From a virus: a DNA stretch of 62,802 bases. Of the stretch, positions 2,445-62,802 are shown in pieces. The stretch covers positions 1 to 62,802 of IMG/VR virus record IMGVR_UViG_3300027833_000047; one strand, 5' to 3'. Numbering within the stretch: the first letter of the stretch is position 1; each line of letters begins with the position of its first letter. The notes beneath the pieces are model-generated. The model saw only the letters and a program-made list of their open reading frames with translations. It did not search any database and was not told the DNA's origin. Made by a program: the position numbers and the translations under genes.

Positions 2445-5400
2445 TTAGCAACCACTTCCGATTCCACTACAATTACCACCTATACATGGTGAGAACGATG
2501 TTACAACACCACCACTAACATTAAAAATACATCCCGTATCTGAAACAAATGCTCCGTTACCTATTAATACGTAGTTACCACTACTAAAGGCGTAAACCGA
2601 ATTACCTGTAGGACAATCTAAGAACGTAGATGTACTAACATCTGTAAAATATTCAATCGTTGGAGTACCCCCACCATTAAAGGAGTTACATGGTTGTGAG
2701 GAACCTCCTCCGTGAAGTCCGAAGAATAGACCTAATGAGTTATATCCTGGAGGTGTCGTATTACATGGGTCAAAACCTGTAATGAAATTACCAACAGGAC
2801 AATCATTATACATTACTTCTTCAGTAGATAAGTTAAGGTCTTTTATCACTCTAACCCAACTAACATCTTGGTGACATTGTGTAGAGGTAGGGTGGGAACA
2901 GTTTTGATTAGGTCCTGACCATATACATGCACAAACAAAATCAAAGTCAATAAGTCCACTAGGGGAATTCGCGGCGATAGCCTGAGCAGCTATAGAAGAT
3001 ACAGGAATTGCATTATATCTATCGTTATTACTTTGTCCAGGATAACCAGGACCCCCTGCTAAAGTAGAAAGAGGTGGGTAATTTAGAAGGTCGGGGGTTC
3101 CTCCTACATTATTCATAGATACCTGACCAATAGTTATACCATTTGCCGTAATATCAAACACTCCTCTATTACATGTATGACCTCCAAAACAAGGTGACCC
3201 GTTTAACCCAAACTGGTTATATTCAACAATAAATGTCAGAGACTCAATACAACTAACTAAAGGTAGTGTTGTTGGCGTTGGTGTTGGTGTAGGTGTCGCA
3301 AGTAGGGTAGTTGTGGGTGTTGGCGTAGGCGTAGTTGTTTGTGTTGGAGTTGGTGTTGGTGTAACATCATTACAACAGATATTATATACAATTTTAGTAC
3401 TTAATCTAAAGTATACATTTTTTAATTCTTTACAATCTGAAATAATTGTTATTAAATTTTGGCCAATATCTAATGTAAAACTTTCAATTTGTGGTATCGT
3501 TTTAAGTATCTCATTAATTGTATTTAACCAATCTTGTGCACTAGGATAATCACCTAAGGTCGTTCCCGTATAAAATGGGTTCTCTACGTGATAAGGAGGT
3601 GTCATTGTACCACCTGAAAAATCAACTATAACATAAAAAACAGCATTTACCAATGAACAGTCCTGATGACCAACAGTTAAATCAAGGTAACCCTCATTTA
3701 ACATAGAACCAAAATCTCTAATACCCGCTGAAGTGGTAATGAAATCGTTTTCACATATCTCAGTTACTTCATAACATTCAACAATTTGATTGTTACAATT
3801 AATTGTGACTGAGTTCGTTGCGGTACACCCATTATGGTCAGTAATAGTTGCGGTATAAGTACCCCCACTCAAACCATTAATGGACGTAGTTGTCTCACCA
3901 TTACTCCATTGAATATTAAACGGAGCAACACCCTGATTAATAGTTATATCCGCCATACCATCATTACCTGAAACACATTCAGTAGGGACTATTATAAAGT
4001 TTACTCCTGTAGATGGGCCTATCGTTATAGTTTGGGAAACTGTACAATTTCGTACATCAATAACATTTAAAAGATATGTTGATGGAGATAGTGAAGTTAT
4101 TGACTGAGTATTTGATGGGTCGTCAATTACTGAATAAACAACAGAACCCGTATTAACATCTGTTAATATATAATCAAATGGTCCCTGTAACGGAACTGAA
4201 CCCGCGGTTAGATTAATATCTATTATTCCATTATTATCGCCACAAGTACCATCAGTGATTGTACTATTAACATTAAATTTAACAGTATTAGATATAGTTT
4301 TTTGAGTCGTGTATGTACAATTACTATTTTGTGATACAATTGTTACCGTATACGTGTCAGAAGGTAAATTGTTAAAAGTATGTGACTGTGACTGAGTACT
4401 GATAGTGTCAGAAGTTATACTACCGGTGACTGAATACGTAAATATTCCTGAAGGACCTATTAAGGATATTGATATGGAACCCTCATCATTACAGACAGAG
4501 TTAGTTACACCAACACTAACAACTGAAAACCCTGCGGTTGAGGGTATAGGCTCTATTGATGTAACTGTACAACCACCAGCATCTGTAATAAGTGTACTAT
4601 TAAACCCTCCACATAATCCCGTAAATGCCACTGACAAATTATTTGAAACTATTACTTCACCTGAACTATTTTGATACGTATATGGTGAAGTACCCCCCAA
4701 TATAGTCACCACTACTTGACCATCACAATCAAAACATCCCGCCTGTGTCGGTACCGCTGAAACTACAGACAATGGGTCAGCTAACCCTACGTTAGTACTT
4801 TGGCTTAATCTACACCCTTCAGAATCTGTAACTTCAACCCCCCATGAACCCACAGATAATCCAGTCGCGGTTGGTGTTGTTTGTCCATTAGTCCATAAGT
4901 ACGTGTATGGTGGGGTTCCACCTAATAAGTTAGTGACAGTCACGGTGCCGACATTAGAACCACATGGAGAATCAGGAACAACTAAAAGATTGTAACTTAT
5001 CGGGTCAGTACTTATAACTATTGTGTTCGTTGTTTGTACAATCGCACCTCCAAAATCGGTAACAATACAATAATAAGTCCCTGGTTGAACATTTACAAAT
5101 ATTTGTACATTAGAAAGAGCATTAAAAGATTGTACAATTACACCTAAAGAATCATATAAATCGTACTGAAATGGGCTAGATAATGAATCATTTGTAACAG
5201 TTACTACTCCATTGGTGTTACCACATGTCGTACCCGAAGAAGTGATAGTGGCGGTAAAACAACCTTCAACATTAACATTAATAATTACATCTTGATTAAT
5301 CCCACCTGAACTATCTTGAAGTACAAAAACATAACTACCTTCGTCAACTCCACTCCAAATAAATGGACCGTCACCTGTTTGTTGAGCCAATAGTAATCCA

Positions 5401-7214
5401 CCCACCGCAGTAGTTGACGTATTTGTAATAGTATAAGGTTTTGTACCACCTGAAGGACTTATCAATATGACACCACCTTTAGGATTGGTACAAGTACCTG
5501 TAACTTCAAAACTATAACTTAAAGGTCCTTCGTCACAAGGGTCAACACATGGGTCACTAGTTATTCGTATACCTTGATATGAAAAACTAGTGTCTACACA
5601 TACCTTTTCACCTACCGATGTACCTTGTAGTATATTTCCACAACAATCCGTATATGCATAAACACCGTCAGTATCACCTGAAAAACAACCCGTAACCGCA
5701 CTTGGGGTCGGAGTATTAGTCGGAGTGTTAGTTGGTGTATAAGTAGGGGGAACGAAGGAGCTTGTAGTTGGCGTCATTGTTGGCGTTACCGTAGGTGTTG
5801 GAGTAAACGTATTTGTCGGCGTAGGGGTAGGTGTGACTTCCTGACATAATACATCATCACACTTTATAGTACTTACTGAGGCAACATCATTATCCCAATA
5901 AGTGATGGTTACAAATGAAAGAGCACCTGGGCTAATTATTCGACTGAGACAATTATTTACCCCACCGACATCTTCAAATAAATACGTATTTCCCACCCCA
6001 AATGGTCCTGTAAAGTCATTATCAAAATCTATAACATTAAATCTAAATATTTTGTTACCAGTACAGGCCGAAAAAAAGTAATATATATCTACGGCATTTA
6101 CGTTATTAGTACAGTCAACACAACTTTCAAAGACATCACCCATTGGATTTCCATTTAATGGTGTCGAAACCAATACTTGGTCAACCGTATCAGTTTCACC
6201 ACCAAAACATTCCAATTTTAATTGAACAAATTGTGGTTGTACTTTTCCACCACCCGTTGGTTGTCCCCATGTTAATGTTGATGCACTAAAGACCTGAGCA
6301 CCTTGACTTATCCCCGTACAATCTTTATCAGCCGTAAATTTATATATGTTATTAAATGGGTTATTTGTTTGACAATCACTACAATCCGAATACCAATTTG
6401 ATACTATATCATAAAAATTAGTTAAAGTTCCGCTGTAAGGTGTTTGAGTATTATTCGGACGTAAACACGGTCCACCCCATATTGAAGAATATGATTCTAC
6501 TCTATCCCTCATATCTCCAGAATATTCTATACCACTAATACCCGTTATTATATTACCATAACAGTCATCGGACATCGAAACCCATCCATCATATAACCCA
6601 TTAAAGTAGTTTCTAGCGGTTGTTGCGGAATAGGGGATTGTCGTGTAATATGAACTTGGACCACTTATTAAGTCTGATGAGTAAGAACTGGCATTGTTAA
6701 AATCATAATTTAAAACTCCATTATTAGTTATATGATTATAATCATCTAAACTCGTTAAAGAAATGTAATCATACCTATTAGTATCGACTCCAATTAATTT
6801 TAACGTATTATTAAACGTATTCGCACTATAAAAATTAGTAACGTATCGGGGGGACTTAAACGTTCCACTCGGACTTTCTACATCAATATAGTTTTGAGCA
6901 AAAAATGTTGTATTAATATTAAACGTTGAACCTATATAGACCGCGACCGATGAAGATGATGTTGTATTCCATGGTTCACCTGTAATCATTTGAGTATCAA
7001 AAGCAATTGGTGTAAGACCTAAAGGTGAAACTTTCCAAGTTCTTGACCTAAATGCCCAAGTTGAGTTCGGGAAATTCGTTAAATAAGTAACTGTAGACGC
7101 TCGGTCATTACCTGCAGGAACATTGGCATCTGGCCAAGCCATATAAACTGTCGAACCTGTAGTTGGTGAACCTACAGTTGCTATTTGTTCTAATTTAAAA
7201 TATAATGTTGCCAT
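2445..7214 (-). CDS. Large adhesin with SprB-like repeats and Pro-Thr linkers
   Basis: A 1589-aa protein, probably a tail fibre or host-recognition adhesin. Residues 1-455 form a Cys-containing N-terminal region that I do not recognise. A Pro-Thr linker covers about 458-505. Residues about 565-1140 contain roughly seven repeats of the SprB type, seen in motifs such as GGTPPYTYLWTNGQTT followed by a glycine turn and VTDSEGC. A second Pro-Thr linker lies near 1283-1319. A Gly/Cys-rich C-terminal domain (about 1325-1589) is unrecognised and may be the receptor-binding tip. SprB repeats are known from the gliding-motility adhesin of Flavobacterium and other Bacteroidota surface proteins. The start overlaps the stop of the upstream gene as TAATG, so translation is probably coupled to the baseplate operon. 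Virion location is inferred. Confidence 0.8.
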   Translation of the reverse strand: MATLYFKLEQIATVGSPTTGSTVYMAWPDANVPAGNDRASTVTYLTNFPNSTWAFRSRTWKVSPLGLTPIAFDTQMITGEPWNTTSSSSVAVYIGSTFNINTTFFAQNYIDVESPSGTFKSPRYVTNFYSANTFNNTLKLIGVDTNRYDYISLTSLDDYNHITNNGVLNYDFNNASSYSSDLISGPSSYYTTIPYSATTARNYFNGLYDGWVSMSDDCYGNIITGISGIEYSGDMRDRVESYSSIWGGPCLRPNNTQTPYSGTLTNFYDIVSNWYSDCSDCQTNNPFNNIYKFTADKDCTGISQGAQVFSASTLTWGQPTGGGKVQPQFVQLKLECFGGETDTVDQVLVSTPLNGNPMGDVFESCVDCTNNVNAVDIYYFFSACTGNKIFRFNVIDFDNDFTGPFGVGNTYLFEDVGGVNNCLSRIISPGALSFVTITYWDNDVASVSTIKCDDVLCQEVTPTPTPTNTFTPTPTVTPTMTPTTSSFVPPTYTPTNTPTNTPTPSAVTGCFSGDTDGVYAYTDCCGNILQGTSVGEKVCVDTSFSYQGIRITSDPCVDPCDEGPLSYSFEVTGTCTNPKGGVILISPSGGTKPYTITNTSTTAVGGLLLAQQTGDGPFIWSGVDEGSYVFVLQDSSGGINQDVIINVNVEGCFTATITSSGTTCGNTNGVVTVTNDSLSSPFQYDLYDSLGVIVQSFNALSNVQIFVNVQPGTYYCIVTDFGGAIVQTTNTIVISTDPISYNLLVVPDSPCGSNVGTVTVTNLLGGTPPYTYLWTNGQTTPTATGLSVGSWGVEVTDSEGCRLSQSTNVGLADPLSVVSAVPTQAGCFDCDGQVVVTILGGTSPYTYQNSSGEVIVSNNLSVAFTGLCGGFNSTLITDAGGCTVTSIEPIPSTAGFSVVSVGVTNSVCNDEGSISISLIGPSGIFTYSVTGSITSDTISTQSQSHTFNNLPSDTYTVTIVSQNSNCTYTTQKTISNTVKFNVNSTITDGTCGDNNGIIDINLTAGSVPLQGPFDYILTDVNTGSVVYSVIDDPSNTQSITSLSPSTYLLNVIDVRNCTVSQTITIGPSTGVNFIIVPTECVSGNDGMADITINQGVAPFNIQWSNGETTTSINGLSGGTYTATITDHNGCTATNSVTINCNNQIVECYEVTEICENDFITTSAGIRDFGSMLNEGYLDLTVGHQDCSLVNAVFYVIVDFSGGTMTPPYHVENPFYTGTTLGDYPSAQDWLNTINEILKTIPQIESFTLDIGQNLITIISDCKELKNVYFRLSTKIVYNICCNDVTPTPTPTQTTTPTPTPTTTLLATPTPTPTPTTLPLVSCIESLTFIVEYNQFGLNGSPCFGGHTCNRGVFDITANGITIGQVSMNNVGGTPDLLNYPPLSTLAGGPGYPGQSNNDRYNAIPVSSIAAQAIAANSPSGLIDFDFVCACIWSGPNQNCSHPTSTQCHQDVSWVRVIKDLNLSTEEVMYNDCPVGNFITGFDPCNTTPPGYNSLGLFFGLHGGGSSQPCNSFNGGGTPTIEYFTDVSTSTFLDCPTGNSVYAFSSGNYVLIGNGAFVSDTGCIFNVSGGVVTSFSPCIGGNCSGIGSGC
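3259..3366 (-). repeat. Pro-Thr linker in the SprB-type adhesin, C-terminal copy
   Basis: A short Thr-Pro array (TPTPTPTQTTTPTPTP and onward) separates the region after the SprB-like repeats from the C-terminal domain. Codon use resembles the long array at the left edge of the window. Confidence 0.8.
3795..5522 (-). repeat. SprB-like protein repeats
   Basis: About seven degenerate units of 70-90 residues. Each has a Cys near the start, a GG-x-x-PY core (for example GGTPPYTYLWTNG and GGTSPYTYQNSSG), a G-x-Y-x-V/A-x-V/I strand and a closing D-x-x-GC. The repeat is visible in protein, not as DNA identity, so the array is old. Boundaries are approximate. Confidence 0.7.
5697..5840 (-). repeat. 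Pro-Thr linker in the SprB-type adhesin, N-terminal copy
   Basis: A Thr-Pro array with [18 protein letters not shown] on one side and [13 protein letters not shown] on the other of a short SSFVPP break. It joins the N-terminal domain to the SprB-like repeats. Confidence 0.8.
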
Positions 7215-10183
7215 TAACTACAATTAATTTGTACATTTACACCAACGTTTACTGTTAGAGTTTTATCTGTGAATTCAGGGTCACATCCTGTGTTACTTAC
7301 TGTCAAAATATTACTACTACCTATAGTATAGTTTAAACCACTTTGATATAAATACTGTAACTTATCATTCAATGCGATAACCCATTCATTAAATGTCGGA
7401 TAATCTTGTCCACCAAGTCCCTCATAAAATTCTTCCTGTACTAAAATTGTTGAATCTAATCTTACATCAACATACCATTTACTAACTAAACTGTTTAGTA
7501 CACAGTCATTAATAGTGTACCCCGATTTATTAATACAACTATTAATACTATTATTTAATATGGTCGACATAGAATTAATATTAACGTCACACGTAAGTGT
7601 TTCATCAATACAATCATTATCAAATAACTGACCATAATATACACATGGTATACACTCAACAGGTATAAGTTGGCAACCTCTTTGTCGTCTCCAAACATGT
7701 TTTTGTCTTTGTAAAACATTGTTTACCATTTTCTGACCACCCATCCATATCGTAGAGGCAGGAATCATTTGTTCGACTAATTTTGTCCAATAGTCACCAA
7801 TACCTAAAGTAAAATCAATCATCTTTTGGTATGTATATTGATTTGATGGTATGTTTACCGCAGAATCGGATTGTAAGTATTTCCAATATATCGATTGTAG
7901 TGTTGGGTAACTGTTCACCGCACCGTCACTAATGGTTTGTCGGTTTCTTACATTAATTAATGTATTGTAAAAAGTTTGAGCAAATTCAAAAAATGTTTTT
8001 TCTTTTGGTAGTGGGTTAATTATTGTCCAATCTTGACCTCCAGGAGATGGATAAGGCGATGTCAGTCCCGATGAAGGAAAAGGGTAGTTATAACGTCTAG
8101 ACATTCTCCATATATCATATGTAATACCTTGCGCCATGTTTAAATATAATTCAACATTTTTAGCATTAAGTACTAATTTTTCATCAAATACCTCGTAATA
8201 TGCATTATACTCCCCATCACGATTTCTTCTAACACCTGTTTCAGTGTCATCCCACGATTTATTATTATCAATAGTTCTAGTTAAACCAAAACCAATATCC
8301 ATGTATGGAAATTTTCTAAACCTATCAAAATACTTTTGACCGTAGGTAAAAGTCTCTAAAGATGTTTGTATACTAGGATTCGCCCCTGTAAATGTTGAGT
8401 TTGTTATGTCGAGTTTTTCTATCGCTCTATGGTCGGGCGTCTCAATATACCATCCTGCACCCTTTTCAAAGAAATAGTCGTTGTTTGTTACAGGTCTTTT
8501 TGGGTAACCATATTCATTCATAGGGTAATCCCCTCTTATGGCATCTGTTTGACTAACGTATTTTGATGTCGTAAAACCTGTATATGAAACACCTTGTATA
8601 TTATAAACCACGTTAGGGTCTAAAGCCGGTACATCATCTACTTTTGTACCACCTGACATTTTTAAGTATTCGCCTTCGAACCTTTTTACGTTTATTGGAC
8701 CATCAGCGACGTACACTATTTCATTAAATTCGATTAAATCTTTAGGGGCACCTACCATCCTCATAATTGCCTCGATAGAGTGTCTCGTACCTTTTGACTT
8801 AAACAAATATGCCGAATTAAGTATTAAATTTCTATAAAATTGAAAATTTAATTGGTTGGGTGTTGGGTCATTTTCAAATCCTGCATATGCGGACTTATTT
8901 TCATTACCAAATATTGAATTTAAAAAGCCCTCATTTGTTATTGGTGATATATTAGTGTTCCACCCTAACGTTTGAGCTAAATTTTGTAATAACTCTGAAG
9001 GGATATCGTTTTGAGGGGTATAATGTACTGAATTCATAAAAGATAATGCATCTATAAATTTCTTAGACTCATCAAAACTTCTACCGTATAGTTGTAATAC
9101 TTTTTCAACCTTTTTATCACCAGTATCAAAATCTTTAAACGCACCTGTAGTTAAAAATCTAACTATTAGGTCAGTCTTATATCTATCCATAACTTCACCA
9201 ATTTCACTAACTTGCGTTAAGTAATTGTCAAATCTTAACGTTGATATGTCTAAATTCCACACCCCTAATTTTGGCCATGTTACTCTTTTTTTACGTTTTA
9301 TAAATTGTCCGTTATCTCCCTCTTCAACTAAATCAAATATTGCCGTATATGGTGGGTTAGTAAATCTATTTAATAAAAAATCTTCAATCTCATCAAAATC
9401 CTCTTTAAATGTAAATTCAGTATTGAATGATGTCGGTCTTAATATTAAAGTATCTGTTGATGAGGCTGACCCACTAAATGGGTTACCTCGAACCGTCACC
9501 GTAACTGTACCCGCAGAAACGTTTTGAGACGCCATGAAATTAACAAAAGGATACTCAGTTTCCATATTATTAACATATAACGCATATTTGTTGTAATTAG
9601 TAGTCATATCCCTCAATGGACTTATGGGGTATGACCTAACTGAAATATTACGTGCAGCATTTACTGAATAATCAATATCAAAAGGATTATCAAATCTAGT
9701 AACATCCATTGTAAACGTTGTTAACTGTTCAACACTATTAAACGTTATATTATTAGCTGTATTTGCAGTACTATACGATGGTAAAGAAACCCGATTCACT
9801 TGTATTGATGCCGGAAAAAAATTAATTATTTTAGTTATAGACGTAGACAATCTTTTCTGTAACGACCCATAAAGAGCGTAATTAGTAACCTGACTTATAT
9901 CGTAGTTCGGATAAACTCTATAATTTTTTATCGCAATTGCTTTAGACTCTTCAATACTACCAACATCGAGGTCATTTAAAGATATAGGATTACTAAACAC
10001 TCCCGTGTCAAATGTTCTATTAACTTTTTCAACAATATTTGTAGAAAACTCGAAATTACCCTGAGTTAACCCCCCTCCTTGAACCACTTGTAACCCAACT
10101 AAATCAGGTGAAAATGATTGGTCAGCACTTGGAGGTGCTGGTGGATAAAAAAACTTCTTAGTCTTATTGTTGTTTGTAGCCAT
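7214..10183 (-). CDS. Baseplate/tail-fibre connector, tail protein I-like
   Basis: A 989-aa virion protein. The central region (about residues 320-490) resembles the phage tail protein I family: helical stretches such as YGRSFDESKKFIDALSFM, then LAQTLGWN, then the NSAYLFKSKGTRHSIEA motif followed by IMRMVGAP. In P2-like and T4-like phages this family links the baseplate to tail fibres. The N-terminus carries a Pro-rich segment (FFYPPAPPSADQ). The C-terminal 200 residues contain several Cys and a 90-residue domain whose motifs (LNDKLQYLYQSGLNYTIG) are also seen near the end of the neighbouring SprB-type adhesin (WLNTINEILKTIPQIESFTL), hinting at a shared fold. It begins 2 nt after the stop of the gene before it and overlaps the adhesin start. 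The family call is by motif only. Confidence 0.65.
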   Translation of the reverse strand: MATNNNKTKKFFYPPAPPSADQSFSPDLVGLQVVQGGGLTQGNFEFSTNIVEKVNRTFDTGVFSNPISLNDLDVGSIEESKAIAIKNYRVYPNYDISQVTNYALYGSLQKRLSTSITKIINFFPASIQVNRVSLPSYSTANTANNITFNSVEQLTTFTMDVTRFDNPFDIDYSVNAARNISVRSYPISPLRDMTTNYNKYALYVNNMETEYPFVNFMASQNVSAGTVTVTVRGNPFSGSASSTDTLILRPTSFNTEFTFKEDFDEIEDFLLNRFTNPPYTAIFDLVEEGDNGQFIKRKKRVTWPKLGVWNLDISTLRFDNYLTQVSEIGEVMDRYKTDLIVRFLTTGAFKDFDTGDKKVEKVLQLYGRSFDESKKFIDALSFMNSVHYTPQNDIPSELLQNLAQTLGWNTNISPITNEGFLNSIFGNENKSAYAGFENDPTPNQLNFQFYRNLILNSAYLFKSKGTRHSIEAIMRMVGAPKDLIEFNEIVYVADGPINVKRFEGEYLKMSGGTKVDDVPALDPNVVYNIQGVSYTGFTTSKYVSQTDAIRGDYPMNEYGYPKRPVTNNDYFFEKGAGWYIETPDHRAIEKLDITNSTFTGANPSIQTSLETFTYGQKYFDRFRKFPYMDIGFGLTRTIDNNKSWDDTETGVRRNRDGEYNAYYEVFDEKLVLNAKNVELYLNMAQGITYDIWRMSRRYNYPFPSSGLTSPYPSPGGQDWTIINPLPKEKTFFEFAQTFYNTLINVRNRQTISDGAVNSYPTLQSIYWKYLQSDSAVNIPSNQYTYQKMIDFTLGIGDYWTKLVEQMIPASTIWMGGQKMVNNVLQRQKHVWRRQRGCQLIPVECIPCVYYGQLFDNDCIDETLTCDVNINSMSTILNNSINSCINKSGYTINDCVLNSLVSKWYVDVRLDSTILVQEEFYEGLGGQDYPTFNEWVIALNDKLQYLYQSGLNYTIGSSNILTVSNTGCDPEFTDKTLTVNVGVNVQINCS

Positions 10184-48097: not shown

Positions 48098-51000
48098 TTA
48101 AATATCTTCAAAAGATGCTCCTGTAGGAGTAATCAAAAATTCGATATCTATAAATTCAAGTGCTCTCGTTGGTTTCAAGTATATTTTACCTGTTAACGTA
48201 TTAGAGTCTAAATCTTCAGGTGTACCTGAAACCGTAACTCTAAAGTCAATTAAACCTCTGTCTCTTCTAATACTATCTAAGATAGGATTAACTGAGTCTA
48301 AGAATTCTTGTCTTACTTGTTCGTCATTTTGTTCGAACAATAACCTTACCGCCACAGCCGAAATTAATTTACGTGCTTGTAGTAATAATCTTCTAACGTT
48401 TATTCTATCAAGTGCAGATTCTTTAATTTGTAAAGTTTTGTTACCCCAAATAACAGTACCAACATCAGAGAAGGTTGCAATTGGGTTTAATCTACCTTGG
48501 TATAGAGTATCTCTATCTTCTTGTGTTAACTTTTTACGTGCTTTAACTGAATTAACTAAACCTCTCGTGTAACCCGCCGATGCGAACCATGGGAATGCTA
48601 TGTTATCTGTTAATGCTAAGTTTCTAATAACTTCACCTGTTGGTGGAAGATAAATTTGTGTATTATTAACGGTGTCTCTTGTAAGTATCCACGGGTAATA
48701 AGTTGCGGTATAGTTGGAATCAATTCCTGTATCAGTTAAATTATCTACCGCTTCTTCAGGGTAAATAAAGTCTGTATCAAAACTACCTAAAGAAGGTGTA
48801 AACATTTGATAATCAGGTGTAGTACAAATATAAATAGAATCCGCTCTATCCTGTTCAACCATATCAATTGCTGACTCAACTAAGTTTGAATTATTTACAT
48901 AATCAATACCTGGTGTAGTAAATACATTAATGTTAACTGCTTCAGGATTGTTAAAAGTGTATTGACCCCATAAGTAAGCGTAATAATCAGTGTTTGCCCA
49001 AGTTAATTTGTCTGGACCAACAATTTGTTTAAACGCTCCCCATCCTGTTGCGGTTGGGTAACTTATTGAAGGTGCCGCACCTTTTCTAAATCCAGCCGCT
49101 CCTAATTGGTATCTGTCTCCGTTAGTTCTATATTGTCTATATATGTCCCATCCATCAAAACCACCTGACGGTACAACTGTAAATTTACGTGAATTTAATC
49201 TAAAATATGGACTACCTTCAGTTGGTTCTGAGTCGAAACTCGCATCTCCAACTTCAAACGCAGTTTCACCTGATGTAGTATAATTAGAAGAAATACTAAT
49301 AACAGTCGCTCCTGAATCCATATGGTAACCTTTAGTAAGGTAAGACCATGGTTGTGAATCCGTAGCGGTAGCTAAGTTTGTTGGGTTTTGTTTTCCTTTA
49401 TATGATAAGAAATCCGCATCTATACCAGCAGTGTTAGAAACACCTAAGAAAGTTCTTCTTACTCTGTCGCCTGAACTTCTTGTTTCATTATCTGTACCTG
49501 AAGCCGCTCCAAATGGAGGATTCCAAATAACTTCACCTGGTGTGTCGTATTTTGTTTTGTATTCTAAGAATGGTGATTTAACTCCTGAGAACTGTCTAGT
49601 TTGGTAACCTCTAAAACCACAAGGTAGTGAATCAAAAGGTGCGTCTTCATTCATTTCTAACATTATAAATCTAGACCTTAATTCAAACTCCCCATTAGAA
49701 GTACCAATCCTCTTAGCCACAAAACTATTTTGGTTCATATCCATTGTACAGTTAGTAAATTTCTCTAAAACTACAGGGTTAGCGTCGGTATCGAAAAAGT
49801 CACGTACTACCACATCAAACGTTCCATTATTAAATGAAATATTCATGATAGATACTTTTATCTCTCTATTTGCCGAATTACCATCAGAAATGGTTAACAC
49901 TTTAAACATATTATAAACTTGATTACCTCTTAGTTCTGAAACAAAGTAAGGTGTTTCAGGTGTTTGATATTGTTCTAAATACCATCCGATACTCGTGTTA
50001 GTACCCAAATCTTGTCTTGCACTTGGTAATTCAACGAAATCACAATTTAAACCACGAACTCGACCTAATCGATACCCCGTGTTTAATAAGTTATAATATT
50101 CTTCTTCTACAAATAAAGGTACTTCAGATTTTGGTTTAGCAAAATTAGATTTACCAAATACTTTTGATAAGTAATTTGAATTAGAAATATTAAATGATGT
50201 TTGGAATGTGAAAATATCACCATCCGATGTTTTCGCTGAAACCGCGAAAGTATCAAAAGGGTTAGTGGATATTCCAGAATAAGCTCCTGAACAGTCTATT
50301 AAAGCGTCAGTTGTTCCTGAAACCTCATATACAGGACCATCATCAGTGGTATATGTATCAATACCTCGTGAACGTAAAGTTGCTACTACCACATCATGAT
50401 AATCATTATATGGTGTACCCGTATAAGTAGTTACGTAAACTTGAGCGGAACCTGTGAAAGATAAACCACTATTAGTCATAGTTGTTACACCAAAACCAAA
50501 TCCTGTACCGTTATAAACGTCATTATTTTCAGTAAATAATGCGTAATACCATGGGTCGTTTACAGATGCAGTTAAATCAATTGATTCAAACTGTACATCT
50601 TCAACACCTAAAACATTTACGTTTCCTACGTAATTAGGTGTGCTAGTTGTAATATCGCTATATGTTGTCGAACTAACCGCACCCCAAAAATAAGATGTTT
50701 GACCTGAAGTTGTGTTGTTTACTATCTCTGAATAGAAATAACCTTCCATATCTGAAAGGATTGATGATTCACCACCAGTATACGTAGTATATGGATTTGT
50801 TATCACACCTTGAATTGAAGCTGGAAGTGAACTGTAATTTGTCACCGCAACACTTGTAGATGTTCCTGAAACTCCGGTAAATATAATATTAAATGGTCCA
50901 GATTCTCCCGTAGCGGTTGTTCCTGAACTATCTAAGTTACCGATAGTTGTTATTGACCATGAAGGTCCTGCGTCATACCCTGATAGACCAAGTACTCTAG

Positions 51001-51280
51001 TAACAAACAATTGATTTGATTGTTGTAGATATGATTTAGCTATATAAGCCGCCTCATACTTAGGTATCTGAGTATTTACGAATTTAGTTGGATTTGTACC
51101 ACCAAAATAGGATTGGAACTCATCGTAATTAGTTATGAAAATCGGCTCGAACGCTGGTCCCGAAATTGTTTCACCTACTAACCCAAGAGTTGTGACTCCT
51201 ACACTTTGTGCTACAAAACTTAAATCTCTTTCTGATGTATAAACTCCCGGAGATACAAATACTTTGTTAGATGTTGCCAT
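48098..51280 (-). CDS. 18: Contractile tail sheath protein gp18
   Basis: A 1060-aa sheath subunit; T4 gp18 has 659 residues. The N-terminus has the family start VFVSPGVYTSERDLSFVAQS followed by GVTTLGLVGETISGPAFEP and ITNYDEFQSYFGG. The C-terminal polymerising domain is clear: LDRINVRRLLLQARKLISAV, then RRDRGLIDFRVTVSGTPEDL and TGKIYLKPTRALEFIDIEF. About 400 extra residues lie in the middle (roughly 120-620), Ser/Thr/Gly-rich and beta-like, probably protruding domains on the outside of the sheath. It has a TATTTATC site 32 nt upstream and stands alone between divergent and convergent neighbours. Confidence 0.92.
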   Translation of the reverse strand: MATSNKVFVSPGVYTSERDLSFVAQSVGVTTLGLVGETISGPAFEPIFITNYDEFQSYFGGTNPTKFVNTQIPKYEAAYIAKSYLQQSNQLFVTRVLGLSGYDAGPSWSITTIGNLDSSGTTATGESGPFNIIFTGVSGTSTSVAVTNYSSLPASIQGVITNPYTTYTGGESSILSDMEGYFYSEIVNNTTSGQTSYFWGAVSSTTYSDITTSTPNYVGNVNVLGVEDVQFESIDLTASVNDPWYYALFTENNDVYNGTGFGFGVTTMTNSGLSFTGSAQVYVTTYTGTPYNDYHDVVVATLRSRGIDTYTTDDGPVYEVSGTTDALIDCSGAYSGISTNPFDTFAVSAKTSDGDIFTFQTSFNISNSNYLSKVFGKSNFAKPKSEVPLFVEEEYYNLLNTGYRLGRVRGLNCDFVELPSARQDLGTNTSIGWYLEQYQTPETPYFVSELRGNQVYNMFKVLTISDGNSANREIKVSIMNISFNNGTFDVVVRDFFDTDANPVVLEKFTNCTMDMNQNSFVAKRIGTSNGEFELRSRFIMLEMNEDAPFDSLPCGFRGYQTRQFSGVKSPFLEYKTKYDTPGEVIWNPPFGAASGTDNETRSSGDRVRRTFLGVSNTAGIDADFLSYKGKQNPTNLATATDSQPWSYLTKGYHMDSGATVISISSNYTTSGETAFEVGDASFDSEPTEGSPYFRLNSRKFTVVPSGGFDGWDIYRQYRTNGDRYQLGAAGFRKGAAPSISYPTATGWGAFKQIVGPDKLTWANTDYYAYLWGQYTFNNPEAVNINVFTTPGIDYVNNSNLVESAIDMVEQDRADSIYICTTPDYQMFTPSLGSFDTDFIYPEEAVDNLTDTGIDSNYTATYYPWILTRDTVNNTQIYLPPTGEVIRNLALTDNIAFPWFASAGYTRGLVNSVKARKKLTQEDRDTLYQGRLNPIATFSDVGTVIWGNKTLQIKESALDRINVRRLLLQARKLISAVAVRLLFEQNDEQVRQEFLDSVNPILDSIRRDRGLIDFRVTVSGTPEDLDSNTLTGKIYLKPTRALEFIDIEFLITPTGASFEDI

Positions 51281-53723: not shown

Positions 53724-55487
53724 ATGGAAAGTAATAAAGATAAATTATCAAAGATACCTGAAGTTAGGGCGCAACGTACATTAGAGGTGTACGATGGGTT
53801 CAATAACTATATACAATCCATTCAAAAAAAATTCAGAGAACAAAAACATTTTAAATTAACTAGGGCTCAAGCCGACTACATCAATAGTTATCATGAGTTA
53901 GTCCCTAAAATAGCCAGAAAGTGGGTCGAATTAGACAGTTACTTCGGTAAAAAAATGATGGAAGATAAACTTCTAACAAGAGTCCCTGAAAAAGTCTACA
54001 TAGAAAAACTTTTAGTTGAAAAAGATAAGTCCTTTCATATTTGGGGTAAAATCTTTGAGAATGAGAAATTACATTCCTTTTGGTTACCTCGTGTCGCACT
54101 AATTAAATCACAAGAAACCGAAAAAGTTGAAATTGATTATGAAAAGTATTCACATAGACCACCATTAGAACATCAAATTGAATCCATAGAAAAATTGGCT
54201 AGTCATAAAAAATATATTTTAGCTGACGATATGGGATTAGGTAAAACTACCTCAACAGTAATCGCCGCTTTAGAGTCGGGGGTGGAAAGAGTATTAATTG
54301 TTTGTCCAGCATCATTAAAGATTAATTGGAAACGAGAAATTCAAAACTACACTGAGAAATCGATATCGATAGTCGAGGGTAAGAAATGGGAAAGTGCGGA
54401 TTTTGTTATTATTAATTATGACATATTAAAAAACTTTCATGATATCAAAAACAAAGAAGAGTCAATTATATTACAAGAAGGATTCGATTTAGTTGTTGTT
54501 GATGAGGCACATTACATTCAAAATGTTCAGGCTAAAAGAACCAAACTTATTAATGACATTATAAACTCAATAGGTAAGGTTTGGTTGTTAACAGGAACAC
54601 CAATGACATCAAGACCAATAAATTATTATAACTTATTAAATTTAGTTGAGTCACCTGTCGCATACAATTGGATGGCATACGTTATTAGGTATTGTGAAGG
54701 ATATCAATTTAATGTGGGTAACCGTAAAGTATGGAACGTAAATGGTTCATCTAATCTAACAGAGTTAAGAGATAGAACTAAAACTCACGTTCTTAGAAGA
54801 TTAAAACAAGACATATTAGATTTACCAGATAAAATTATTACACCTGTTTACCTTAATTTAAAATCTAAAGAGTATGTTGCTCTAATGGGTGAATATTATG
54901 ATTGGATGGAAGATGATAGGGAAAAGAAATCATTAACGGTACAGTTCTCTATGTTAATGAAAATAAGACAGATAATCGCTGAAAATAAAATTAAAGAAAC
55001 TTGTGAATTAGTTGAGAACATTATCGAACAAGGTAAAAAAGTTATAGTTTTCACTAACTTTACAAATACCTTAAATCAAATTGCCGACCATTTCGGTAAA
55101 AAGGCAGTGAAGTTAGACGGTAAGATGAATAAAATATCAAGACAAAACTCAGTAGACCAATTTCAAGAAAACGATAAAGTAAGGGTGTTTGTAGGTAATC
55201 TTAAAGCTGCGGGTGTTGGAATAACACTAACGGCAGCTGAGGCGGTTATTATGAATGATTTATCTTTTGTCCCTTCGGACCATTCTCAAGCTGAAGACCG
55301 AGCGTATAGGTATGGTCAGAAATCTAACGTTTCAGTATTTTATCCAATATTTGAAAACTCCATTGAAGGAATTATTTACGATATACTCTCACAAAAGAAA
55401 AATGTCTTTGAAACTGTTATGGGGGATAATGAAGGAAGAGGAGACATTATGGAACAAATTATTAATGAAATATCAGTTAGAAGATAA
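53724..55487 (+). CDS. SNF2/SMARCAL1-type DNA helicase (UvsW-like role)
   Basis: A 587-aa superfamily 2 helicase of the SNF2 class. Motif I is at 168-176 (ADDMGLGKT), motif II DEAH at 260-263, motif III in WLLTGTPMTSRP, then NYYNLLNLVE, and the C-terminal motifs V-VI in GNLKAAGVGITLTAAEA and HSQAEDRAYRYGQKSNVSVF. The RYGQ motif VI and compact size point to the SMARCAL1 (HARP) group, whose members anneal and remodel branched DNA. In T4 a branch-migrating SF2 helicase, UvsW, does related work in replication restart, so a similar job is inferred. It begins the plus-strand group; the exact TATAAATA of the T4 late promoter is 7 nt before the ATG. Confidence 0.88.
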   Translation: MESNKDKLSKIPEVRAQRTLEVYDGFNNYIQSIQKKFREQKHFKLTRAQADYINSYHELVPKIARKWVELDSYFGKKMMEDKLLTRVPEKVYIEKLLVEKDKSFHIWGKIFENEKLHSFWLPRVALIKSQETEKVEIDYEKYSHRPPLEHQIESIEKLASHKKYILADDMGLGKTTSTVIAALESGVERVLIVCPASLKINWKREIQNYTEKSISIVEGKKWESADFVIINYDILKNFHDIKNKEESIILQEGFDLVVVDEAHYIQNVQAKRTKLINDIINSIGKVWLLTGTPMTSRPINYYNLLNLVESPVAYNWMAYVIRYCEGYQFNVGNRKVWNVNGSSNLTELRDRTKTHVLRRLKQDILDLPDKIITPVYLNLKSKEYVALMGEYYDWMEDDREKKSLTVQFSMLMKIRQIIAENKIKETCELVENIIEQGKKVIVFTNFTNTLNQIADHFGKKAVKLDGKMNKISRQNSVDQFQENDKVRVFVGNLKAAGVGITLTAAEAVIMNDLSFVPSDHSQAEDRAYRYGQKSNVSVFYPIFENSIEGIIYDILSQKKNVFETVMGDNEGRGDIMEQIINEISVRR

Positions 55488-55505
55488 AAAATTATAATTA
55501 CCTAT

Positions 55506-55513
55506 TATTTATA
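55506..55513 (+). promoter_or_regulatory. TATTTATA motif upstream of the superoxide dismutase fusion
   Basis: Plus-strand TATTTATA, 12 nt before the ATG at 55526, in the 38-bp gap after the helicase. Confidence 0.4.
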
Positions 55514-55525
55514 ATAAAAAAACAA

Positions 55526-57088
55526 ATGGAGTTCAAAAGGTTAAAAGACAAAATCTCATTAATTGAACATAAAATTAATAGTCGAGAAAATTTAACTAAA
55601 GTTAATCCTATTATCTCGCACACTCCCAAACAAATTTTAACAGAAATGAAAAAAATTGGTATAGAAGAATTACCGTACTCTTATTCTGCCTTAGAGAGAT
55701 TTATAGATTCAGAAACTATGGATACTCACTATAATAAACATTATAAAGGATACGTAAAAAAATTAAATGACGCTCTTTCAAGTAGAGTCGATGGAAATAT
55801 TGAATTAGAACAACTAGTAAAAGGTATTTCAAGGTATAATAAAACAATTAGAGATAATGCGGGTGGAGCATTTAACCACGCATTATTTTGGAAAATTATG
55901 TCACCTAAAAAACAAAGAGCTGAAGGTGCGGTATATGAAAAAATAATTAAAGATTTTGGAAGTTTTCCTAAATTTAAAAAAATATTTAGTAATGAGGCCA
56001 TTAAAAATTTTGGCTCAGGATGGACTTGGTTAGTAGTGACTAAGGAAGGTAAATTAAAAGTTATGTCCACCCCTAATCAGGACAACCCATTAATGAATGT
56101 GGTTAAAAATGGAGGTTACCCAATCCTTTGTTTAGATACGTGGGAACACGCATATTATTTAAAATATCGCAACAAAAGAGACGAATATGTTAGAAATTTT
56201 TGGACAATAATTAATTGGGATTATGTTAATGAATTATATCTAAATCAAACCTCTAAAAAATTAACTGAGACTAAGATAGTAAAAAACATCATCTCTGAAG
56301 GGGCGAGTGCGGGTTGTAATAGAAACCAAGTACAAACATATCGAAGATTATTTAATACAAACCCTGAAATCAAAAAACGTTTTATGTATACTATAATGGA
56401 CATTTTAAAAGAAGTGTTTTCGGAATACTGGTATGAAAAAAATAAATACGATAAAGGTCAAATGTCAGGAATTTACGATTATGAACAAAAAGGTCGTTCT
56501 GTTATTAATAAGTTAAATACTAACTACACATCATTTTGTACTTTAGTTAGCGACACTAACCAGTATTTAAGAAAATATGGTATTGATGCAATTAACTTTA
56601 ATGATAAAAACCGTAAAGAGCAACTATCTGAAGTAGATAGACTTAATAAATATTTAGTCGAATTAAGGTACTCTATCTTTAAATCAGACTCTCCAACATT
56701 TAAAACAATTATGACGGGATTAGATAAAACTAACAAATTTGGGGATAAAAGAGAGGTTGATGCGGTAGCAAGTTTAAAAAATATTTTCAATACTAGCGAC
56801 GTTAAAAAAGTTGGTGAACTAGGTGATGTGGATGATATGATTAAAGGTATTGATGCGGTTGTTGAATTACCTGAAGGTACTAAAACAATACAAATTAAAC
56901 CATTTAATAGAATTAATAAACAAGATGGTAAAGTTATTGTTTATGGTACAGGAAACGTCAAACCCTATAAAACTGACTACTTAGTGTTTCATAGTAATAA
57001 ATTAGGTACCGAAGTTTTTGAAAATAAAAACACAAAGATAATTAACGGAAGATACGTTTTTAGTGAGTCATCACAATATAATAATTAA
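55526..57088 (+). CDS. Mn/Fe superoxide dismutase fused to a PD-(D/E)XK-like domain
   Basis: A 520-aa protein. Residues about 48-238 are a full Fe/Mn superoxide dismutase: H68 in MDTHYNKHYKGYV, H118 in NAGGAFNHALFWK, and D204/H208 in LDTWEHAYYLKYRNKR, with FGSGWTWLVV and PNQDNPLM between. The GG-x-x-NH and NQD-x-PL forms favour the manganese type. Residues about 240-395 are a helical linker (KIVKNIISEGASAGC). Residues about 400-490 look like a PD-(D/E)XK nuclease core: EVDAVASLKNIF, then IKGIDAVVELPEG and TIQIKPF, with Gln where an acid is usual. The enzyme would remove superoxide; the tail domain may bind or cut DNA or be inactive. It lies between helicase and neck genes with a late-type motif upstream. 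Confidence 0.8.
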   Translation: MEFKRLKDKISLIEHKINSRENLTKVNPIISHTPKQILTEMKKIGIEELPYSYSALERFIDSETMDTHYNKHYKGYVKKLNDALSSRVDGNIELEQLVKGISRYNKTIRDNAGGAFNHALFWKIMSPKKQRAEGAVYEKIIKDFGSFPKFKKIFSNEAIKNFGSGWTWLVVTKEGKLKVMSTPNQDNPLMNVVKNGGYPILCLDTWEHAYYLKYRNKRDEYVRNFWTIINWDYVNELYLNQTSKKLTETKIVKNIISEGASAGCNRNQVQTYRRLFNTNPEIKKRFMYTIMDILKEVFSEYWYEKNKYDKGQMSGIYDYEQKGRSVINKLNTNYTSFCTLVSDTNQYLRKYGIDAINFNDKNRKEQLSEVDRLNKYLVELRYSIFKSDSPTFKTIMTGLDKTNKFGDKREVDAVASLKNIFNTSDVKKVGELGDVDDMIKGIDAVVELPEGTKTIQIKPFNRINKQDGKVIVYGTGNVKPYKTDYLVFHSNKLGTEVFENKNTKIINGRYVFSESSQYNN

Positions 57089-57129: not shown

Positions 57130-58242
57130 ATGTCTGTAATTATTGAACCACAAAGAACAAAACTGTATACTCGTGTAAAACACCTGTTAGGTGCACCAAT
57201 ACGTAGTATCGAAATAGAAGACGAAATGATGGACTCATTATTAGAGTTTTCAATTCAAGACTATGCCCAATATGTAAATGATTGGCTAATTGAATCACAA
57301 TGGACATCTCTTTACGGGTTGAACTTAGATGAAGAATCAGTTACTAGGGCATTTACTACACGTTCCTTAGATTGGGAAACTCAATACACTTATGCCTATT
57401 CCAAGATTGTTGGACTACAAGCAGGTGGAGATTCTGTACTTAAAAAGGACTATATAGATTTAAAAACAAACCAACAAATTTATGAAATACCTGCGGGTAG
57501 AGAGTTAAATGAATTATTATGGTTTACAAGAGCAGAATTAGACGCCGCCTTTTTTGACCCGTTTATGGGTGGATTTGGTGGTATGGGTGGTGTAGGTATG
57601 GGTGGTGGTGCCGGTTTTTCACAAATGGGTCAATCTGGTAACTATATGATAACTCCCGCGTTTGACATTTTACTTAGAATGCAAGATATCAACTTAAAAA
57701 GAAGATTAATTGGTGGTGAATTAACTTATAGGGTAACCGCGTTACCTGAAGGTAAAAAGGCATTACATCTTTATAATGTACCTGGAGGTAAATTTGATTT
57801 TGGTAATATGCAAAACAATGAGTACCGAGTATGGTACTGGTATTACGAAACTGACGATAGAGAAGATTGTTTAGCAAAAAATCCTGATATTATTAGATTA
57901 CCTTCTGATATTCCAATCGATGAGATGTTGTGGGCAGAATTAAATAATCCGGCACAGGCTTGGGTTAGAAAATGGTTCGTAGCCTATGTAAAGGAAACGT
58001 TAGGACGTGTTAGAGGTAAATTTAGTGGTAACTTAAAGACACCCGATTCTGAAGTAACCATGGATTATGATTCACTACTTACTGAAGCTAAAGATGAAAA
58101 AAGTAAATTATTGGAGGAGTTAACCGCAAGATTAGAAAGACTAAGACCCGATAAGATGATGGAGAGAGAAGCTAACTTAGCGGAACAATTAAATAAATCA
58201 TTACAATACAGAGCGTTACCAAGACAAATGTACGTAATTTAA
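57130..58242 (+). CDS. 13: gp13-like neck protein
   Basis: A 370-aa protein resembling T4 gp13 and its marine relatives (T4 gp13 is 309 aa), which close the head-tail joint. The N-terminus has the usual helical start: LYTRVKHLLGAPIRSIEIED, then DSLLEFSIQDYAQYVNDW. Later come WVRKWFVAYVKETLGRVRGK and an acidic, helical C-terminal region (LLEELTARLERLRPDKMM). A Gly/Met-rich loop of about 25 residues (GGFGGMGGVGMGGGAGF) interrupts the middle, at residues about 144-166. The gene is transcribed from its own motif and is followed 2 nt later by the 112-aa gene. Confidence 0.65.
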   Translation: MSVIIEPQRTKLYTRVKHLLGAPIRSIEIEDEMMDSLLEFSIQDYAQYVNDWLIESQWTSLYGLNLDEESVTRAFTTRSLDWETQYTYAYSKIVGLQAGGDSVLKKDYIDLKTNQQIYEIPAGRELNELLWFTRAELDAAFFDPFMGGFGGMGGVGMGGGAGFSQMGQSGNYMITPAFDILLRMQDINLKRRLIGGELTYRVTALPEGKKALHLYNVPGGKFDFGNMQNNEYRVWYWYYETDDREDCLAKNPDIIRLPSDIPIDEMLWAELNNPAQAWVRKWFVAYVKETLGRVRGKFSGNLKTPDSEVTMDYDSLLTEAKDEKSKLLEELTARLERLRPDKMMEREANLAEQLNKSLQYRALPRQMYVI

Positions 58243-61902: not shown

Positions 61903-62802
61903 TTAGGCGGTCGGGGGACTATTCTTATATGGGTGGTTTGACGGTAACGCTCCTGTTCGTCCCCATTTCCAAGCCAAATAACCCTCAGCCTTTTCTAACT
62001 CAGTTAGGTCGGTACCACCCGTACCCGGTAAGGATGCGTAGGCGATATACTCACCCATTCGACCATTAAGTTCAACTGATGACCTATTTCTCATTAATCT
62101 CAATTCTTGATTTGTTGATAATGAATTATCATAATCATTTACAGGTGAGAAGGTATTTGTTTGACCATCTATTCTTATACCGATTTGGTTTCCTGTTTTA
62201 TTAAAGAAACATACAACAATATACCATTGGAATCTATTTAAACCTCCTAAACCTGTCCAATCTAATTTATCGCCAATTGTAGTACTAATTTTATTACTAC
62301 TTAAACCATCTAAATCCAATTCACCTGGCCATGTATTATTTGATGCTCCCGCACTTATAGCATAATCTCTTTTTGGTGATTGATTTGTTTCATAACTCCA
62401 AAATGAATTTTTGGTATTATTAGTTCCATCATATCTAAATAAACCAATAGCCCAATGGTTACCCGATGACACTTGTGATTCGTAGGATGTACTCTGTAAG
62501 TAATCACCGTTACCATCAAACTGAAATACATTCAATCCATTTTGAGTTGATGAGTTAGTTGTCGTAGTACCTGCAACTGTCATAGTATAAGTTCCCGCTT
62601 TATCAGTTACTGAAGATAAACTTGTTCCACTTCTTGTATAGTTCGAAGTATCTGATGCGTCAATCCAAGCGACTGGTGTTAATGTCGAATTTGGTGACCA
62701 TAGGATTGGTGATGGAGTTGGAGTTTGTGTTGGAGTATTTGTTTGAGTTACTGTGGGTGTAGGGGTATTAGTCGGAGTATTCGTTGGAGTGTTAGTAGGT
62801 GT
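61903..62802 (-). CDS. Pro-Thr stalked LamG-like protein, N-terminus off the right edge
   Basis: The frame stays open from the right edge (a codon starts at 62802) to the stop at 61903, giving 299 residues of a longer protein. The ATG at 62583 is internal, because the same frame runs on upstream without a stop. It starts with a Thr-Pro array ([22 protein letters not shown]) to about 62706, then a lectin-like domain: ILWSPNSTLTPVAWIDASD, then GNHWAIGLFRYDG, RFQWYIVVCFFNKTGN, and NGRMGEYIAYASLPG. This is the LamG/concanavalin-A-like pattern of glycan-binding domains. It is probably a fibre or surface adhesin; the missing N-terminus would carry the virion anchor. Confidence 0.75.
   Translation of the reverse strand, partial: TPTNTPTNTPTNTPTPTVTQTNTPTQTPTPSPILWSPNSTLTPVAWIDASDTSNYTRSGTSLSSVTDKAGTYTMTVAGTTTTNSSTQNGLNVFQFDGNGDYLQSTSYESQVSSGNHWAIGLFRYDGTNNTKNSFWSYETNQSPKRDYAISAGASNNTWPGELDLDGLSSNKISTTIGDKLDWTGLGGLNRFQWYIVVCFFNKTGNQIGIRIDGQTNTFSPVNDYDNSLSTNQELRLMRNRSSVELNGRMGEYIAYASLPGTGGTDLTELEKAEGYLAWKWGRTGALPSNHPYKNSPPTA
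62706..62802 (-). repeat. Thr-Pro array at the right edge
   Basis: Plus-strand GGAGTATT-type units run into the right edge and encode TPTNTP tetrapeptides on the minus strand, matching the array at 1-2084. Confidence 0.8.

Follow-up and report, generated by a model that had tools for sequence, protein, structure and literature searches.

The window, as we call the whole stretch of DNA analysed here (62,802 nt), carries an open reading frame of 520 aa (55526..57088, + strand) in which a superoxide dismutase (SOD) is fused to a nuclease-like domain. Both the ORF translation and full-length homologues support its extent, and the coordinates and residue numbers of the preliminary description of this DNA were all correct on re-check. 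The gene occupies a single slot with the order SNF2 helicase, fusion, neck gene and then, on the opposite strand, PolB. The upstream neighbour (53724..55487, +) is an SNF2-type helicase (Pfam SNF2-rel_dom, E 3.5e-26) present in all of 80 loci, and the downstream neighbour is a neck or head-tail adaptor gene (57130..58242, +; phrog_211, E 2e-10) present in 78 of them. The placement between a branch-remodelling helicase and a neck gene that had been described before holds as to the slot, but the helicase is of the SNF2 type, and a role as a UvsW-type remodeller found no support. The closest PADLOC match of the helicase is ZorD. In two relatives the helicase ORF measures ~960-985 aa instead of the usual ~600 aa (L189, 2928-5882; L209, 3018-5897), possibly due to an intein or other insert.

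Architecture, integrity and upstream motif

The protein begins with an N-terminal extension (residues 1-45; 55526..55660, +) that consists of a helix (residues 2-18) and a low-confidence stretch in the AF2 model and that differs among homologues. It is followed by the SOD domain (residues 46-240; 55661..56245, +), delimited by Pfam, PDB matches and conservation, and by a conserved linker (residues 244-259, KKLTETKIVKNIISEG; 56255..56302, +) with a pLDDT below 50 and two [ILVM]-x-E sites ending at E248 and E258. The C-terminal domain (C-domain, residues 259-520, ~260-280 residues) combines a helical half with a PD-(D/E)XK-like core. The helical subdomain (~residues 266-390; 56321..56695, +), modelled by AF2, contains an invariant SxxNxxNT motif (S325, N328 and N331 in 112/112 sequences). 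The core (~residues 391-520; 56696..57085, +), assigned by AF2, Foldseek and invariance, carries E410, D443, Q456 and K458. This architecture and its conservation, the gene slot, the late-type motif discussed below and the assignment of a PD-(D/E)XK-like fold are established by sequence or model.

A frameshift or an assembly join of two separate genes can be ruled out, as full-length relatives with 57-99% identity occur on many independent contigs. The search for the same fusion in other phage genomes that had been proposed as a check returned 96 distinct homologues, and dN/dS values of 0.02-0.1 in the SOD part and in the C-domain indicate purifying selection. We do not regard the split ORFs of L123 as a naturally split gene because this contig contains several frameshifts and its helicase is broken too. 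In L018, L019 and L020 (~5715-5840 / 6001-6125) the N-terminal extension and the SOD are in different frames, offset by one base; translation could begin anew at an ATG (residue 41), which would yield a protein lacking the extension.

The region upstream of the gene (55499..55525, +) contains the late-type motif TATTTAT, which starts 20 nt before the ATG. TATTTAT precedes 11 of the 35 genes of the window compared to 1.3 in shuffled sequences, a strong enrichment, and is located 12-44 nt before the genes concerned (e.g. at 55506, 57108, 46935 and 45379). These include the tail tube and tail sheath genes, the neck gene and the fusion gene itself. Before the fusion gene it is conserved or nearly so in most orthologues. 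Given this enrichment and conservation, the fusion gene is probably a late gene. The late-type motif noted in the preliminary description thus holds up as the phage's own TATTTAT and not as the T4 motif TATAAATA, which is no more frequent in the window than expected by chance and lies on the wrong strand at the fusion gene. Elsewhere in the window, a gene for a tail sheath protein of 1060 aa (48098-51280) matches sheath proteins only in residues 841-1057, leaving the ~840 preceding residues unexplained, and a 226-aa ORF (61903-62583) resembles by eye a lectin-like (LamG-type) surface domain.

The SOD domain and the C-domain

The SOD domain is recognised by both Pfam models of the Fe/Mn family above their curated cut-offs (Sod_Fe_N, E 1e-21; Sod_Fe_C, E 2.5e-39), and its top PDB match is 6gsc (E 2e-58). 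The four metal ligands H68, H118, D204 and H208 and the Mn-type companion residues, here G114 and Q185, had been recognised at the outset and are invariant in the homologues that have the domain (95-96/96, the remainder being gaps). H72, Y76 and W166 are likewise invariant in every homologue with a SOD domain. Together with the Mn-type pattern NAGGAFNH and NQDNP, these residues identify the domain, at the level of sequence, as a Mn-type SOD with a complete predicted active site. The dimer-bridge residues W206, E207, H208 and Y211 are also invariant, and the SOD is probably dimeric. Like the Mn-type members of the family (6gsc, E. coli SodA), it has both Pfam domains, all ligands, the active-site Gln on the C-terminal half and the Glu-His-x-x-Tyr dimer-bridge residues, but it differs from them in being joined to an unrelated domain of ~260-280 residues. 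In a tree the SODs of the fusions form one supported clade separate from 36 sampled cellular SODs, and candidate cellular sources found in a genome scan with exact peptide patterns reach at most 49% identity.

The C-domain matches no family in Pfam, PHROG, NCBIfam or PADLOC. The profile search that had been suggested for this region gave nothing significant against the PDB sequences and, for 55 members scanned against Pfam and PHROG, only scattered weak matches. Structure prediction had likewise been suggested as a check. The AlphaFold model built from 55 homologues, with the LR756501 protein left out, has a pLDDT of 88.5 and a pTM of 0.81 and runs from the helical half through a long helix bearing E410 to strands bearing D443 and Q456-x-K458 and on to further strands. 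In a Foldseek search of the PDB, I-Ssp6803I ranked first (E 3e-3, probability 1.00), followed by Hjc resolvases, and all matches with a probability of at least 0.5 were PD-(D/E)XK enzymes. A viral structure library returned PD(D/E)XK endonucleases, Holliday resolvases and two full-domain homologues, one of them a 1113-aa marine phage protein. The TM-scores against the PDB are modest (0.36-0.45 depending on the target), and the prediction shows no helix of at least four residues between the third core strand and the last one. The fold is therefore assigned from core topology and motif.

With regard to the active site, D443 and Q456-I-K458 lie in the PD-(D/E)XK-like segment as had been pointed out before, and the motif is complete with E410, which sits on the helix before them. 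All 112 distinct homologues (112/112) have these four residues, and they include proteins without a SOD as well as a distantly related stand-alone copy. The nuclease DREN of the SPARDA system uses D41, Q60 and K62 for catalysis and its fold resembles I-Ssp6803I (PMC12205087), which marks QxK as a genuine active-site variant. The C-domain shares the order of helix-Glu, strand-Asp and strand Gln-x-Lys with I-Ssp6803I, Hjc, SPARDA DREN and Mrr-like enzymes, the last two of which also have a D-QxK site. It differs from PD-(D/E)XK nucleases in its additional helical half with SxxNxxNT and in lacking a detectable sequence family. As part of the overall explanation developed below, we give even credence to the C-domain being a new PD-(D/E)XK-type nuclease family with a predicted D-QxK active site.

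Presence and absence of the SOD domain

Two overlapping scans of IMG/VR for relatives of the C-domain returned at least 402 and at least 410 stretches. The fusion is kept down to ~45% C-domain identity. In 29 of the 80 loci among the matches listed, the C-domain alone (277-298 aa) fills the same slot. In a tree of 72 C-domains, constructed by a quick method and with a very long branch as the only outgroup, the SOD label needs three changes. Because the deeper branches all carry the SOD, an early gain followed by at least two losses is the simplest reading of these sequences. Large SOD-less contigs (76-309 kb) encode no other SOD, and contigs with the fusion encode only the fusion SOD. The SOD therefore appears dispensable: a whole clade lacks it, and the contigs encode no other SOD that could replace it. 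To judge from the sequences compared, the C-domain is the constant element of this family and the SOD an optional module. In L204 the SOD-less gene lies between inserted genes (5250-5909 and 6820-7902), the first resembling by eye an HNH-type free-standing endonuclease, and a further inserted gene is found in L189 (8336-8938).

A stand-alone copy of the C-domain with 28% identity is encoded by the 735-kb phage LR756501; used as an IMG/VR query, it retrieved no relatives. The fusion is absent from the isolates in the phage collection, and T4, cyanophage ACG-2014e, Microcystis phage Mel-JY01 and Flavobacterium phage immuto have no relatives of the C-domain. The UniProt entry A0A6J5L953 of an uncultured Caudovirales phage (501 aa) shows the same architecture with 44% identity over nearly the full length; it exists as a database entry only and is named 'superoxide dismutase' after its SOD part. 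Stand-alone Fe/Mn SODs are likewise encoded by phages (the Pseudomonas phage PA5oct group, Vibrio phage 2.275.O and Acinetobacter phage MD-2021a), but the nuclease part is unmatched in these records.

Linker sites and possible functions

The two [ILVM]-x-E sites of the linker are each present in 94/94 sequences, and E258 is invariant in 55/55 members including SOD-less ones. A third such position, the only comparable one in the protein, lies inside a helix and is less conserved, and the fusion linker is the sole place in the whole window with the two-site pattern. The SOD-less L209 retains the linker pattern (KIDESHLFKQILSES). The prohead protease gp21 of T4 cleaves after L/I-X-E (PMC9026906), a motif to which both linker sites correspond in their [ILVM]-x-E form in all 94 sequences. 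Genes for an S77 prohead protease and a gp23 capsid protein are present in 10/12 large contigs of relatives, in a region that lies outside the window. The capsid protein of the relatives contains LINE|A near residue 60, approximately where T4 gp23 sheds its 65-residue N-terminal peptide, and in some relatives a gene adjoining gp21 begins with MKIKITESQLQKLRKVISEGN, which resembles the fusion linker. The conserved sites, their agreement with the gp21 motif, the protease and gp23 genes, the capsid LINE|A, the MKIKITESQLQKLRKVISEGN gene and the uniqueness of the pattern in the window favour prohead processing, and we lean slightly towards cleavage of the linker by a gp21-type protease. The T4 head-internal proteins (IPI-III, Alt) similarly have L/I-x-E sites before the mature domain and a late-type motif, and the relatives of the fusion also encode gp21 and gp23 (10/12 large contigs). 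In the fusion, by contrast, the sites lie within the protein and separate two enzyme domains, and the likeness is one of motif and genes.

Prohead uptake, linker processing and both enzyme activities of the fusion are what we infer from its sequence. In the explanation that we consider best, and which we regard as being about as probable as not, the gene would encode a late bifunctional pro-protein of a constant nuclease and an optional SOD that is packaged into the head and cut by gp21. A Mn-type SOD would have been captured once and placed between the N-terminal helix and the nuclease. The fusion protein would be taken into the prohead, where a gp21-type protease could cut the linker after KLTE248 and/or IISE258 and free SOD and nuclease inside the head. 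The nuclease might then act on DNA upon ejection or during head completion, and the SOD might remove superoxide harmful to phage DNA or to the metal and radical enzymes of early infection. We propose somewhat more tentatively that the virion delivers antioxidant and DNA-cutting enzymes with the genome as a two-enzyme polyprotein separated by the prohead protease. Points against this explanation are that the L/I-x-E motif is short and common, that the linker is helical at low confidence in one model and that the LR756501 copy has no such linker, as well as the modest TM-scores of the C-domain and the absence of the SOD from a whole clade.

The main rival of prohead processing is an unprocessed late cytoplasmic enzyme: a packaging-linked resolvase or debranching nuclease, standing in for T4 gp49, that would work with the SNF2 helicase while the SOD protects DNA at the packaging site. 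It would account for the Hjc-like fold matches, the late-type motif and the constant pairing with a helicase whose best match, ZorD, is of the SNF2 type and carries a Mrr-like nuclease. We nevertheless consider it rather unlikely, as it leaves the two invariant [ILVM]-x-E sites unexplained and the LR756501 copy is not located beside a recognisable helicase. Endonuclease VII, RuvC, RusA and Hjc are not found above the Pfam cut-off in 12 large contigs. We set this absence aside as proof of a resolvase role; it is weak evidence because the same scan, while finding gp49 in T4, came up empty for cyanophage ACG-2014e and Flavobacterium phage immuto and so also misses resolvases in other T4-type phages.

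Less probable still is an auxiliary metabolic gene whose SOD lowers superoxide in the infected cell and whose C-domain merely localises the SOD to DNA. The existence of stand-alone phage SODs, the fully kept active site and the proposal that Fe/Mn SOD serves Microcystis viruses as an auxiliary gene (PMC12542629) speak for this possibility, but through at least two apparent losses of the SOD the C-domain remained in its slot with its catalytic residues intact. The same pattern reverses the earlier suggestion that the C-terminal domain tethers the SOD to DNA, since it is the nuclease-like domain that forms the constant core and the SOD that comes and goes. The neighbouring neck gene and the late-type motif could also point to a structural head-completion protein that binds DNA ends near the neck through the PD-(D/E)XK fold without cleaving them. 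We consider this improbable, as binding alone would not need four catalytic residues that are invariant in 112/112 homologues. A defence or anti-defence device, also raised in the preliminary description, lacks direct support: neither the fusion nor the C-domain matches a known defence family in PADLOC. The virion-related role envisaged there gains support, though not proof, from the late-type motif, the adjacent neck gene and linker sites that resemble prohead-protease targets.

The analysis thus supports a single protein that pairs a SOD with a PD-(D/E)XK-like core, and we found no paper describing such a fusion in the literature searched, which covers few subscription journals. Each part comes from a known superfamily; the combination, the sequence family of the C-domain and the protease-like linker are absent from that literature. 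The gene is a conserved component of a widespread uncultured lineage of T4-type phages, with relatives in at least 410 contig stretches, and has an undescribed nuclease-like family at its core. Sister lineages with and without the SOD in the same gene slot provide a natural experiment, and the fusion offers a concrete, testable case for phages that may carry antioxidant enzymes in their virions.
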